DNA of 38,665 bases, taken from the NCBI RefSeq assembly GCF_003315135.1, contig NZ_QNRK01000053.1, forward strand, positions 1 through 38,665. The letters run 5' to 3'. This stretch comes from Roseiarcus fermentans (lineage in GTDB: Bacteria > Pseudomonadota > Alphaproteobacteria > Rhizobiales > Beijerinckiaceae). Positions 33,955 to 38,353 of this stretch are shown piece after piece. Every line of letters starts with the position of its first letter. Positions within the stretch are counted from its first letter, which is position 1. The notes beneath the pieces were generated by a model. That model was not told the origin of the DNA. It did no database searches and saw nothing but the letters and a program-made list of their open reading frames with translations. Made by a program: the position numbers and the translations under genes.

Positions 33955-35163
33955 GTGGATTCCGTTCAGGCGCCCTCTGCGATCGTTCCGACCTACGCCC
34001 GCGCGAACGTCGCCTTCGATCGCGGCGAGGGATGCTGGCTCGTTTCGACCGCCGGCGAGCGCTATCTCGACTTCGGCGCCGGCATTGCGGTCACGTCGGT
34101 CGGGCACGCCCATCCGCACATGGTCGAGACGCTGATCCGTCAGGGCTCGAAACTTTGGCACGTCTCCAACCTCTACCAGACGCCGGAGGGCGAGCGCTTC
34201 GCCCGCCGTCTCGCCGACGCGACCTTCGCCGATCTGGTGTTCTTCACCAATTCCGGCGCAGAGGCCAACGAGGCGGCGATCAAGATGGCGCGCCGGCGCC
34301 AGTGGATCGACGGCCATCCCGAGCGCTATCGCGTGCTGACCTTCGAGGGCGCCTTCCACGGCCGCACGCTGGCCACCATCGCGGCCGGCGGGCAGAAGAA
34401 GTATCTCGAGGGCTTCGGGCCCAAGGTCGAGGGGTTCGACCAGATCCCGGCCGGCGACCTCGAGGCGGTCGAGGCCGCCGTCGGCCCCGAGACGGCCGCG
34501 ATCATGATCGAGCCGATCCAGGGCGAGGGCGGCGTGCGCGTCATCGCGCCCGCCTTCCTGCGCGGCTTGCGCGCCCTCTGCGACCGGCGCGGGCTGCTCC
34601 TGATCTTCGACGAGGTGCAGACCGGCGTCGGCCGCACCGGGCGGTTCTTCGCCTACGAGCACTCGGGCGTCCAGCCCGACATTCTCACCTCCGCCAAGGG
34701 CCTCGGCGGCGGCTTCCCGATGTCGGCCTGCCTCGCCACCGCCGACGCCGCGCGCGGCCTCACCGCCGGCGTCCACGGCACGACCTTCGGCGGCAACGCG
34801 CTCGCCATGGCGATCGGCAATGCGACGCTCGACATCGTACTGGCCCCCGGCTTCCTCGATCGCGTCGCCGGTCTCGGCCTGCTGCTCAGGCAGCGCCTCG
34901 CCGAACTGAAGGACCGCCATCCCGGGATCGTCGACGAGGTGCGTGGCGAGGGGCTGATGGTCGGCCTGAAGCTGCATGTCCCGCCCGGCGACTTCGCCGC
35001 CGCCGCGCTCGCGCAGAAGCTGCTCGTCATTCCCGCCGGCGACAACGTCGTCCGGATCATTCCGCCGCTCGTGGTGAACGAGGAGGAGATCGCGGAGGGG
35101 GTGCGGCGGCTCGGCGCCGCCTGCGCCGCGCTGGAGCGGCGACCGGCCGTCGCGGTCGAATGA
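33955..35163 (+). CDS. argD: Acetylornithine aminotransferase
   Basis: 402 residues from GTG 33955, with AAGGAG eight bases upstream. A class III PLP aminotransferase converting N-acetylglutamate semialdehyde to N-acetylornithine in arginine synthesis, often also acting in lysine synthesis. Motifs: [55 protein letters not shown]; the PLP-binding Asp region [15 protein letters not shown]; the Schiff-base Lys in [12 protein letters not shown]; and [13 protein letters not shown]. It is the first gene of argD-argF-array-hslO-ispA; the argF ATG follows its stop by one base. Confidence 0.97.
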
Positions 35164-35164
35164 C

Positions 35165-36106
35165 ATGAACGCAGCCGTGCAAGCCGCGCCGCGGCATTTC
35201 CTCGGCCTCCTCGACCTTTCCGCCGGAGAGCTCCGCCGCATCCTCGACACGTCCGAACGGATCAAGCGCGCCCGCAGGAAGGGCGCGGTGCAGGAGTGGC
35301 GGCCGCTGGCGGGCAAGACGCTGGCGATGATCTTCGACCGCCCGTCGACCCGCACCCGGGTGTCTTTCGACGTCGGCATGCGCGAGCTCGGCGGCGAGAC
35401 GATCATGCTGACCGGCGCAGAAATGCAGCTCGGCCGCGGCGAAACCATCGCCGACACCGCGCGCGTCCTGTCGCGCTATGTCGAGGCGATCGTCGCCCGC
35501 ATCCTGAGCCAGGACGAGATGCTGGAGATGGCGGCGCACGCCACCGTGCCGGTGATCAACGGCCTGACCAAGCAGTCGCATCCCTGCCAGGTGATGGCCG
35601 ACATCCTCACCTTCGAGGAATGGCGGGGTCCGATTCGCGGCCGCAAGGTGGCCTGGAGCGGCGATTACAACAACGTCCTGTCGTCCTGGATCGACGCCTC
35701 CGCGCGCTTCGACTTCACCCTCGACATCGCCTGCCCGCCCGACTTGCAGCCGCCGGCCGAACGGCTCGCTGCGGCGAGGGTCGCCGGCGCCCGGATCAGG
35801 CTCGGCGACGATCCGCAGGCCGCGGTCGCCGACGCCGCGGCGGTCATCTCGGACTGCTGGGTGTCGATGGGCGACGAGGACGAGGGGCGGCGGCACAACC
35901 TGCTCGCGCCCTATCAGGTCAACGCCGGCCTGATGGCCGGCGCGGCGCCCGACGCCATCTTCATGCACTGCCTGCCCGCCCATCGCGGCGAGGAAGTGAC
36001 CGACGAGGTGATCGACGGTCCGCGCTCGGCTGTGTGGGACGAGGCGGAGAACCGTCTCCACGCCCAGAAGGGCGTGCTCGCCTGGTGCCTCGGAGTCGAG
36101 CCGTGA
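35165..36106 (+). CDS. argF: Ornithine carbamoyltransferase
   Basis: 313 residues. It makes citrulline from ornithine and carbamoyl phosphate. The carbamoyl-phosphate site is [23 protein letters not shown] is the second conserved block, DCWVSMGDE binds ornithine, and [13 protein letters not shown] holds the catalytic Cys. The C-terminus [18 protein letters not shown] is the source of the downstream tandem repeat: the last 19 codons, plus the overlap with the next GTG, have been copied six times. The stop TGA overlaps the GTG of the first repeat unit by two bases (GTGA). Confidence 0.97.
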
Positions 36107-36477
36107 GCGAAAACCGTCTCCACGCCCAGAAGGGCGCGCTCGCCTGGCGCCTCGGAGTCGAGCCGTGAGCGAAAACCGTCTCCACGCCCAGAAGGGCGCG
36201 CTCGCCTGGCGCCTCGGAGTCGAGCCGTGAGCGAAATCGCCCTCATACGCGGAAGGGCGTGCTCGCGTGGCGCCTCGGAGTCGAGCCGTGAGCGAAAATC
36301 GCCGTCATACGCGGAACGGCGTGCTCGCCTGGCGCCTGGGAGTCGAGCCGTGAGCGAAAACCGTCTTCATGCCCGGAAGGGCGTGCTCGCCTGGCGCCTC
36401 GGAGTCGAGCCGTGAGCGAAAACCGTCTTCATGCCCAGAAGGGCGCGCTCGCCCGGCGCCTCGGAGTCGAGCCGTGA
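36047..36477 (+). repeat. Seven-unit 62-bp tandem array of stop/start-overlapping mini-ORFs between argF and hslO
   Basis: Units begin at 36047 (inside argF), 36109, 36171, 36233, 36294, 36356 and 36418. The period is 62 bases except unit 4 (61). Units 2-7 each start a frame at GTG (36103, 36165, 36227, 36288, 36350, 36412) that reads [11 protein letters not shown]...LGVEP and ends in a TGA sharing four bases (GTGA) with the next GTG; 66-4 gives the period. Five of the six frames are intact (units 2, 3, 5, 6, 7: 36103-36168, 36165-36230, 36288-36353, 36350-36415, 36412-36477). Unit 4 lacks one A, so its GTG opens a 62-codon frame (36227-36415) that joins the unit 6 frame and stop. GGAGTCGAGCCGTGAGC is conserved in all seven units, putting GGAG seven bases before every GTG, including that of hslO. 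Units 4 and 5 are the most diverged in the middle. Confidence 0.95.
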
Positions 36478-37439
36478 GCGCGCCCGTGCGGACGGTGTCG
36501 GCCGAGGCCGTCGACGACATCGTGCTGCCGTTCGCGGTCGAGGGTCTGAGCACGCGCGGCCGGCTGGTGCGGCTGGGTCCCGCGATCCACGCCGTGCTCG
36601 AGCGCCACGGCTATCCCGAGCCGGTGTCGAAGCTGCTGGCGGAGGCGGCGACGCTGGCGATCCTCCTGGGCTCGACGCTGAAGGAGGAGGGCCGGTTCCA
36701 GTTGCAGACCAAGAGCGACGGGCCGGTGTCGATGCTGCTCGTCGACTTCGACGCGCCCTCGAACGTGCGGGCGCTGGCGCGGTTCGACCGGGCGCGGGTG
36801 GCGCGCGCCGCGTCCGGCGACGACCTCGTCGGCCACGGCCACCTCGCCTTCACCATCGATCCCGGCGGCGACCTGTCGCGCTATCAGGGCGTCGTCGCCC
36901 TCGAGGGGCTGGGGCTCGAGGCCGCGGCGCATTCCTATTTCGAGCGGTCGGAACAGATCCCCACCCTGGTGCGGCTCGCGGTCGGCGAGACGGTCACGGC
37001 CGCCGGGCGGTCGTGGCGCGCCGGCGGCCTGATCGTCCAGCACCTGCCCTCGGCCGGTCCCGGCCGACGGGCGGACTTCCATCCCGGCGACGCGCCCGAG
37101 GGAACCGAGCCGCACAGGCTCGACGAGGACGACGCCTGGACCGAAGCGAAGGCTTTGGCTTCGACCACCGAGGCCCATGAGCTGATCGATCCGACGCTGT
37201 CGGCCGAGCGGCTGCTGTTCCGCCTGTTCAACGAGCGCGGCGTGCGCGTGTTCGAGCCGACGCGGCTGGCGGCCCAGTGCCGCTGCTCCGCCGAGGGGGT
37301 CGACGCGATGTTGCGCAGCTTTCCGCCCGAGGAGATCGCGCACATGGTCGGCGACGACGGCATGATCGGCGTCACCTGCGAATTCTGCTCGACCAAGCGC
37401 GTGTTCAATCCCGCTGACTACGGCGTGTCCTCCCCATGA
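36474..37439 (+). CDS. hslO: Hsp33-family redox-regulated chaperonin
   Basis: 321 residues from GTG 36474, which overlaps the stop of the last repeat unit (GTGA) and has GGAG seven bases upstream within that unit. A cytoplasmic holdase activated by oxidation. The N-terminal domain includes LLAEAATLAILLGSTLKEEG and FQLQTKSDGPVSMLLVDFDA. The zinc-binding redox switch has two pairs of cysteines: CRC in AQCRCSAEGVD and CEFC in VTCEFCSTKRVF. All four are present, so the switch is intact. The downstream prenyl synthase starts in its stop codon (ATGA). Confidence 0.95.
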   Translation: MSAPVRTVSAEAVDDIVLPFAVEGLSTRGRLVRLGPAIHAVLERHGYPEPVSKLLAEAATLAILLGSTLKEEGRFQLQTKSDGPVSMLLVDFDAPSNVRALARFDRARVARAASGDDLVGHGHLAFTIDPGGDLSRYQGVVALEGLGLEAAAHSYFERSEQIPTLVRLAVGETVTAAGRSWRAGGLIVQHLPSAGPGRRADFHPGDAPEGTEPHRLDEDDAWTEAKALASTTEAHELIDPTLSAERLLFRLFNERGVRVFEPTRLAAQCRCSAEGVDAMLRSFPPEEIAHMVGDDGMIGVTCEFCSTKRVFNPADYGVSSP

Positions 37440-38353
37440 ATGCAATGTTTCAGGCGCGGCTCGCGGCCGCCGCCGCGGCGGTCGAAGCGGCGCTCGACTC
37501 CGAACTGGCGTTCGAGCCGAAGCCCGGCGAGCCCGCGCGTCCCCGCCGCCTGCTCGAGGCGATGCGTTACGCCACCCTCGGCGGCGGCAAGCGGCTCAGG
37601 GCCTTCCTGGTGATCGAGACCGCCCGCGCGCTCGGGCGAAGCGACGCCGGGCCGGTGCGCGCCGCCGCGGCGATCGAATGCCTGCACGCCTATTCGCTGG
37701 TTCACGACGACCTGCCGGCGATGGACGACGACGACCTGCGACGCGGCCGGCCGACCGCCCACAAGGCCTTCGACGAGGCGACCGCCATTTTGGCGGGCGA
37801 CGCGCTGCAGACCGCGGCTTTCGAGATTTTGGCCGATCCGGCGACGGACTCGAACGCGGAGACCCGCGCCGCGCTGTGCGCGAGCCTCGCCCGCGCCGCC
37901 GGCGCCGCCGGCATGGTCGGCGGCCAGGCGCTCGACCTCGCCGCCGAAACCGCGGAGACGCCGCTCTCGACCGGCGCGATCGCGCTCCTCCAGGCGATGA
38001 AGACCGGCGCGCTGCTGCGCTTCAGCGTCGAGGCCGGCGCCCGCCTCGGCGGCGCGAGCGCAGCCGCCGCGGAGGCGCTGTCGACCTATGGCGCCGTGAT
38101 CGGCGCGGCGTTCCAGATCGCCGACGACCTGCTCGACGCCGAGGGCGACACGGCGACGCTCGGCAAACGCGCCGGCAAGGACGCCGGACGCCACAAGGGC
38201 ACGCTGGTCGCGGCGCTCGGCATCGACGGAGCGCGGCGAAAGCTCGCGGACCTCGTCGCCGAGGCGAAGGCGGCCGTTGACGCGGCGCGCTTGGGCGAGG
38301 CGGGCGACGCGCTGAAGGCGACGGCCGAGTTCGTGGCGGCGCGCAAGAGCTGA
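37436..38353 (+). CDS. ispA: Short-chain (farnesyl/geranylgeranyl type) polyprenyl diphosphate synthase
   Basis: 305 residues. It condenses isopentenyl diphosphate with allylic diphosphates. The first aspartate-rich motif is SLVHDDLPAMDDDDLRRG and the second is FQIADDLLDAEGD; GGGKRLRAFLV binds IPP and VGGQALDLAAE is the central helix. Length and the two residues between the Asp groups of the first motif fit bacterial type II FPP synthase, so IspA is the best guess; chain length is not certain. It overlaps the hslO stop by four bases, so the argD-argF-hslO-ispA genes are chained by overlaps. Dispersed repeats follow. Confidence 0.9.
   Translation: MNAMFQARLAAAAAAVEAALDSELAFEPKPGEPARPRRLLEAMRYATLGGGKRLRAFLVIETARALGRSDAGPVRAAAAIECLHAYSLVHDDLPAMDDDDLRRGRPTAHKAFDEATAILAGDALQTAAFEILADPATDSNAETRAALCASLARAAGAAGMVGGQALDLAAETAETPLSTGAIALLQAMKTGALLRFSVEAGARLGGASAAAAEALSTYGAVIGAAFQIADDLLDAEGDTATLGKRAGKDAGRHKGTLVAALGIDGARRKLADLVAEAKAAVDAARLGEAGDALKATAEFVAARKS

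Follow-up and report, generated by a model that had tools for sequence, protein, structure and literature searches.

A tandem array of stop/start junctions between argF and hslO in Roseiarcus fermentans, and a possible translational link across it

We analyzed a 38,665-nucleotide stretch of Roseiarcus fermentans DNA (hereafter the window), in which argF leads into hslO through a seven-unit minisatellite built from the argF 3′ end. Every unit closes with the same stop/start junction, and an unbroken chain of overlapping reading frames runs from one gene to the other. The explanation that we favor, at a probability of about 0.5, is that a coupling junction was duplicated with a period that makes the duplication harmless, and that translation of hslO probably remains tied to that of argF, if less strongly. 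A neutral array with independent initiation of hslO is nearly as likely.

The array and its reading frames

TRF placed a tandem array at 36050-36480 (period 62, 7.0 copies, 92% matches, score 666), which as a repeat is far outside chance. Its head-to-tail copies lie in the 10- to 100-bp range of minisatellites (VNTRs), and the unit consists of the argF 3′ end and its 4-nt overlap with hslO. The protein family matches of both genes (Table 1) agree with the first-pass annotation, which had derived the unit from argF and let the last GTG start hslO. That annotation had also described seven units with a 62-bp period; seven were found, and the GTG-to-GTG spacings are 62, 62, 61, 62, 62, and 62, so the regular period breaks between the third and fourth GTG, where unit 4, at 61 bp, is one base short. 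Units 2 and 3 are identical in sequence, while units 4-7 differ among themselves. The strongest divergence lies in units 4 and 5, whose middles had already been singled out at first reading. As had likewise been recorded, the 17 bases GGAGTCGAGCCGTGAGC are identical at all seven junctions from argF to hslO, and each junction has a GTGA overlap with GGAG 7 nt before the GTG (7 of 7). All seven therefore carry the stop/start overlap of termination-reinitiation coupled pairs, and at each the SD core stands at a usable distance from the start.

The plus strand of 36041-36480 contains exactly seven stop codons, each of them the TGA of a GTGA. Five of the six added units form the 21-codon ORF that had been ascribed to all of them; the ORF from 36227 extends to 62 codons because unit 4 lacks one base. 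In codons, the chain from argF to hslO reads 313-21-21-62-21-hslO, with five hand-overs, and it skips the mini-ORFs at 36288 and 36350, thus bypassing two junctions. It remains closed despite the deletion in unit 4 because all seven plus-strand stops sit in GTGA. The idea that the chain is independent of copy number held as arithmetic: when units 2-7 were singly removed (six variants) or doubled (six variants) in silico, all 12 distinct variants still reached hslO, as follows from a GTGA overlap combined with a period that leaves a remainder of 2 on division by three. With one base added to or taken from every added unit in silico, the last ORF overran the hslO start.

Table 1. Features of the argF-hslO region, in window coordinates
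Feature	Position	Strand	Evidence
argF (ornithine carbamoyltransferase), 313 aa, stop TGA 36104-36106	35165..36106	+	TIGR00658/NF001986, PF00185+PF02729
Unit 1, the 3′ end of argF, from which the repeat derives (sequence in common with the other units from about 36050)	36041..36102	+	TRF, junction mapping
First SD-GTGA junction, GGAGTCGAGCCGTGAGC	36092..36108	+	exact sequence search
Other six SD-GTGA junctions (start positions)	36154, 36216, 36277, 36339, 36401, 36463	+	exact sequence search
GTG codons of the seven junctions	36103, 36165, 36227, 36288, 36350, 36412, 36474	+	
Unit 2 mini-ORF, 21 codons, GTG to TGA	36103..36168	+	junction mapping
Unit 3 mini-ORF, 21 codons; same unit sequence as unit 2	36165..36230	+	junction mapping
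Unit 4 (61-bp) mini-ORF, frame shifted, 62 codons through units 5 and 6	36227..36415	+	
Unit 5 mini-ORF, 21 codons; off the relay path from argF	36288..36353	+	
Unit 6 mini-ORF, 21 codons; off the relay path from argF	36350..36415	+	
Unit 7 mini-ORF, 21 codons; GTGA overlap with hslO at its end	36412..36477	+	
Predicted stem-loop over the hslO GTG (unit 7 and first hslO codons)	36441..36485	+	fold prediction
hslO (Hsp33); its GTG start belongs to the seventh GTGA junction	36474..37439	+	NF002386, PF01430

The distance from the argF stop to the hslO start is 367 nt, and the operon junctions on both sides of the array are tight. Upstream lies a class-III aminotransferase gene, taken as argD (PF00202 match, frame 33484), the stop of which is 1 nt apart from the argF start (35161-35167); downstream, hslO and a polyprenyl synthetase gene (PF00348) overlap by ATGA (37436-37439). 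The longest hslO frame, 36369-37439, opens at an ATG within unit 6 and would encode 356 aa. We rejected an N-terminally extended HslO from this ATG, since by eye an SD core is absent ahead of it, and gene callers may draw a spurious 35-codon hslO extension out of the repeats.

We also examined folding and transcription signals. The stem predicted over the hslO GTG reaches -33.4 kcal/mol for 60 nt, which is no stronger than expected from shuffles (z of -0.76 and -1.5), and in 65-nt folds the empty-site junction gave a similar value, -32.5 kcal/mol against -34.4 with the array. Such a stem would fit the idea that ribosomes have to open the start, but it is not evidence for it. A sequestering stem as a conserved device was dismissed, the start-codon pairing among relatives ranging from 0.02 to 0.96 in a table whose rows for loci L015, L022, L028, and L034 use a start other than that of hslO. 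A special fold of the whole array was set aside as well (z -1.35, not remarkable), and the folds of three junctions in the window and of one relative were unremarkable. No RNA family was detected at the gathering threshold in 35900-36700, and no sigma-70-like promoter was found in 35000-37600. The only terminator-like site in the latter region lies within the array on the minus strand, and shuffled sequences give the same number.

The locus in its genome and among relatives

The background scan covered 2.04 Mb of the organism's own genome, made up of 100 stretches and the window. In a separate search of the genome, no second copy of the array emerged at E <= 0.001, with 40 of 103 first-look candidates scored, and GGAGTCGAGCCGTGAGC occurs in the genome seven times, in the array only. 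The near match GGAGTTGAGCCGTGAGC on contig 12 was rejected as a second array, as its region has no visible argF-like ORF. In the 2.04 Mb, TRF returned 49 rows with a period of at least 20 and at least 2.5 copies, some of them overlapping; for 15 of the 49 the period is not a multiple of three, and the argF-hslO array scores highest of these. A second high-identity minisatellite, on contig 30 (L132:3492-3684; 38 bp x 5.1, 98% matches), lies shortly 3′ of a 506-codon ORF that looks aldehyde dehydrogenase-like by eye. It shows no sign of coupling, so arrays without a coupling role do arise in this genome. Near a contig start on contig 16 (L067:426-1582), a GC-rich CCCTTCTCCGCGAAGCGGGG-type element forms large tandem duplications (458 and 203 bp).

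Of the 21,452 ATGA/GTGA sites in the 2.04 Mb, 6 open a chain of at least five stop/starts; three of these belong to the argF-hslO region, and the remaining three are spread over two further loci. Since chains occur elsewhere, chaining alone can be chance; the repeated SD and the identical junctions set the argF-hslO array apart from chance chains.

For comparison with relatives, where one genome represents each species, a search with HslO covered 60 genomes including our own and found a match in 59; loci were obtained for 30, one being our own. Together with six named loci among the matches listed, this gave 35 relatives' loci, and 34 argF-hslO junctions were compared after L021 was left out because argF is absent from the stretch fetched. 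In none of the 34 was there a second argF-like end after the argF stop (best 20 of 41 bases). The two genes overlap in frame by 4 nt at 19 of the 34 junctions and by 1 nt at five, with neither arrangement at ten; within the genus, nine of ten relatives have the 4-nt overlap, locus L011 being the exception. The near relatives L003, L004, and L005 share the GTGA junction, which bears out the earlier proposal that the original argF/hslO junction was of this form. L003, the closest by HslO (ArgF 90.7% and HslO 83.6% identical), has a single GTGA and lacks the array. The best named protein match among the matches listed was HslO of Rhodoblastus acidophilus (59%). In one relative (G018, locus L028), the argF stop and the HslO match are 429 nt apart, at a junction that is an overlap in most relatives.

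The wider survey used an exact codon-degenerate pattern for the argF motif ENRLHAQKG, which matched in 355 of the 397 genomes sampled from the family and in 259 of 397 from the order. Twenty genomes are common to both lists (18 with a match), so that 596 of 774 distinct genomes matched, and, with rows judged by eye, our own was the only one of the 774 with more than one match. The survey concerns exact matches and says nothing about arrays that have diverged or about the 178 genomes that gave no match; even in our own genome four of the seven units fit the pattern. When the array DNA was compared with the genus, each of the ten other genomes showed a match at its one argF end, and four short, weak matches fell elsewhere. 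Among the genomes compared, the minisatellite is seen in this lineage only, as far as such matches can tell.

Explanations for the array

According to the explanation that we favor, a 62-bp piece comprising roughly the last 18 argF codons, the SD core, and the GTGA overlap with hslO would have been duplicated in tandem. Because 62 leaves a remainder of 2 and there is no other plus-strand stop, the added copies are short ORFs with their stop over the next start. A ribosome ending argF at 36106 could then restart in turn at 36103, 36165, 36227, and 36412 before arriving at the hslO start (36474), which means that the two genes could stay coupled in spite of the 367-nt insertion. The output of hslO per argF would lie below its pre-expansion level, because each hop loses ribosomes, a loss that fresh initiation at the repeated SDs would offset partly. 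The array would owe its persistence to doing little damage, and not to any tuned regulatory role, and the short peptides are probably by-products. Reporter data from E. coli bear on both lengths. In the part of PMC10666635 available, reinitiation was (almost) abolished at +38 nt, for which reason hslO would be expected to lose its coupling if 367 nt devoid of ORFs were inserted, and the last 15 nt of the upstream gene sufficed for coupling, for which reason 63-nt mini-ORFs are long enough. Speaking against our reading, the deletion in unit 4 makes the relay skip two junctions. The relay may also be dispensable, as hslO retains its own SD.

The strong rival, already named as the plain alternative in the first-pass annotation, is a neutral minisatellite: slippage would have copied the argF 3′ end, the last SD-GTG alone would be used, hslO would initiate independently, and the chain would be accidental. 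We consider it a serious, somewhat less probable account. A period has a one-in-three chance of leaving a remainder of 2, the deletion in unit 4 shifts the frame, homogenization between units could maintain their likeness without selection, and the minisatellite on contig 30 offers an example without coupling. Against it stand the coupled type of the ancestral junction, as judged from relatives, and the loss of coupling that a 367-nt gap is predicted to bring about (PMC10666635, as far as its text was available). Moreover, all seven junctions are intact although the middles of the added units differ at up to 11 of 62 columns.

How far that last point exceeds chance was assessed in two ways. 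The array alignment has 14 substituted columns; its longest invariant run spans 22 columns (P=0.017), or 18 when the deletion is counted (P=0.052), and the 8 bases of GGAG and GTGA are spared by substitution with P=0.11, figures that we count in favor of a neutral array. The 17-base junction is spared with P=0.006, its limits having been chosen post hoc, and its conservation is only modestly beyond chance. In 5000 neutral simulations with 16 substitutions and one deletion, any closed path being counted, SD and GTGA were all intact in 10% of runs, the chain was closed in 33%, and both held in 3.4%. Because the last figure assumes 16 independent events, ignores shared ancestry, and uses a criterion set after seeing the array, we take it only as suggestive of selection. 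An earlier criterion (21-codon ORFs throughout, 5%) was replaced, since the real array itself fails it.

A third account, which we hold to be improbable, sees an adaptive rheostat: slippage would alter the copy number and thereby set the Hsp33:ArgF ratio, as in a contingency-type switch. In one form of it, itself just as improbable, the array would be a self-made chain of reinitiation minicistrons in which every unit gained or lost would change the hslO/argF ratio by the same factor with the chain unbroken, because a ribosome in any plus-strand frame meets a GTGA within three units. The tolerance of the chain for single-unit changes in silico fits such a switch, and the identity of units 2 and 3 makes a recent change plausible; the length of the repeats upstream of M. 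tuberculosis fpg1 has also been linked to expression (PMC2734929, in the part available). On the other hand, the other 773 distinct genomes of the survey lack a second exact match to the argF pattern (595 have one). Control of hslO/argF by copy number, as proposed at first reading, is possible but unsupported.

That the 21-residue peptides and their variants are functional products seems very unlikely. Between unit 2 and units 4/5, pS is 0.45-0.46 and pN 0.11-0.13 over the 17 codons compared, and the differences are mostly synonymous (Fisher P=0.011-0.021), as selection on a peptide would have it. The ratio, however, is like the one seen when argF is compared across species (0.20-0.35, six relatives) and may be inherited from argF alleles. 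The relay takes unit 4 in another frame, the nine residues ENRLHAQKG are altered at three positions in unit 4 and at four in unit 5, and a Pfam search with the 62-codon ORF returned no match. The peptides look unconstrained; the base missing from unit 4, together with the amino acid changes in units 4 and 5, weakens the earlier expectation that the array yields several near-identical products of 21 residues. Silent-site divergence between unit 2 and units 4/5 exceeds that of argF against L003 (0.31), and 5 of the 10 changed columns of unit 4 carry the L003 base. Some bases in the middles of units 4 and 5 (36227-36349) are common to argF of the sister species L003 and L006. We read these middles as possibly older or exchanged, perhaps foreign, argF sequence. 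Selection on a peptide is the less likely reading, given that motif residues mostly kept by argF are altered in units 4 and 5 and that the relay takes unit 4 in another frame.

Finally, an array real in itself with a wrong copy number or a wrong unit-4 deletion is the least probable account: the genome is a 90-contig draft assembly, in which the copy number could be wrong because units 2 and 3 are identical, and yet several units are needed, since units 4-7 are mutually different and both flanking genes share one contig.

Precedents and meaning

In the literature searched, we found no report of such an array, and no paper on this hslO/argF operon by title. Coupled NTGA overlaps as described in the available parts of PMC6728339 and PMC10666635 share the GTGA overlap and the SD core 7 nt ahead; the array differs in iterating the junction seven times in tandem, and coupling is here a prediction from sequence. 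Compared with an ordinary bacterial minisatellite, it has the same head-to-tail 62-bp copies, with units 4 and 5 most diverged, whereas its period and content keep a chain of SD-start-stop modules.

The closest precedent is the MIRU arrays that occur in mycobacterial operons. They reportedly contain small ORFs overlapping at DTGA sites, and on this description our array resembles them in its units between operon genes and its overlapping small ORFs. In the accessible text of PMC4213456, the M. tuberculosis senX3-regX3 MIRU units are 77 bp and 53 bp, and the MIRU region has promoter activity and drives regX3 transcription. In both systems, a pair of genes is separated by tandem units some tens of bases long, and 77 and 53, like 62, leave a remainder of 2 on division by three. 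MIRUs are, however, dispersed over 41 locations in H37Rv (PMC2734929, part of the text), whereas the argF-hslO unit occupies a single locus at E <= 0.001, is home-made from the argF end, and comes without a promoter-like site in the region searched. As a one-locus, argF-derived unit, the array is not filed as a MIRU. The function proposed for MIRUs includes differential translation in a polycistronic operon (Supply 1997, as cited in the available part of PMC2734929).

The same portion of PMC2734929 describes an array between rnc and fpg1 that is 279-358 bp long in M. tuberculosis, M. bovis, and M. microti, with 3-54 bp between the two genes in other mycobacteria in the rows given. There, as here, a long array stands where relatives have few base pairs. 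The units of those repeats are 55 and 79 bp, and they are discussed in terms of DNA folding, transcription factors, and enhancer-like sites, a stop/start chain not being among the explanations in that portion.

If the relay works, the argF-hslO array would offer a natural series of reinitiation junctions for measuring how efficiency compounds over hops. It would also mean that tandem duplication of an operon junction can be harmless when the period leaves a remainder of 2 on division by three, and it would provide an independent case of the MIRU proposal, arising from the end of a host gene instead of a dispersed element.
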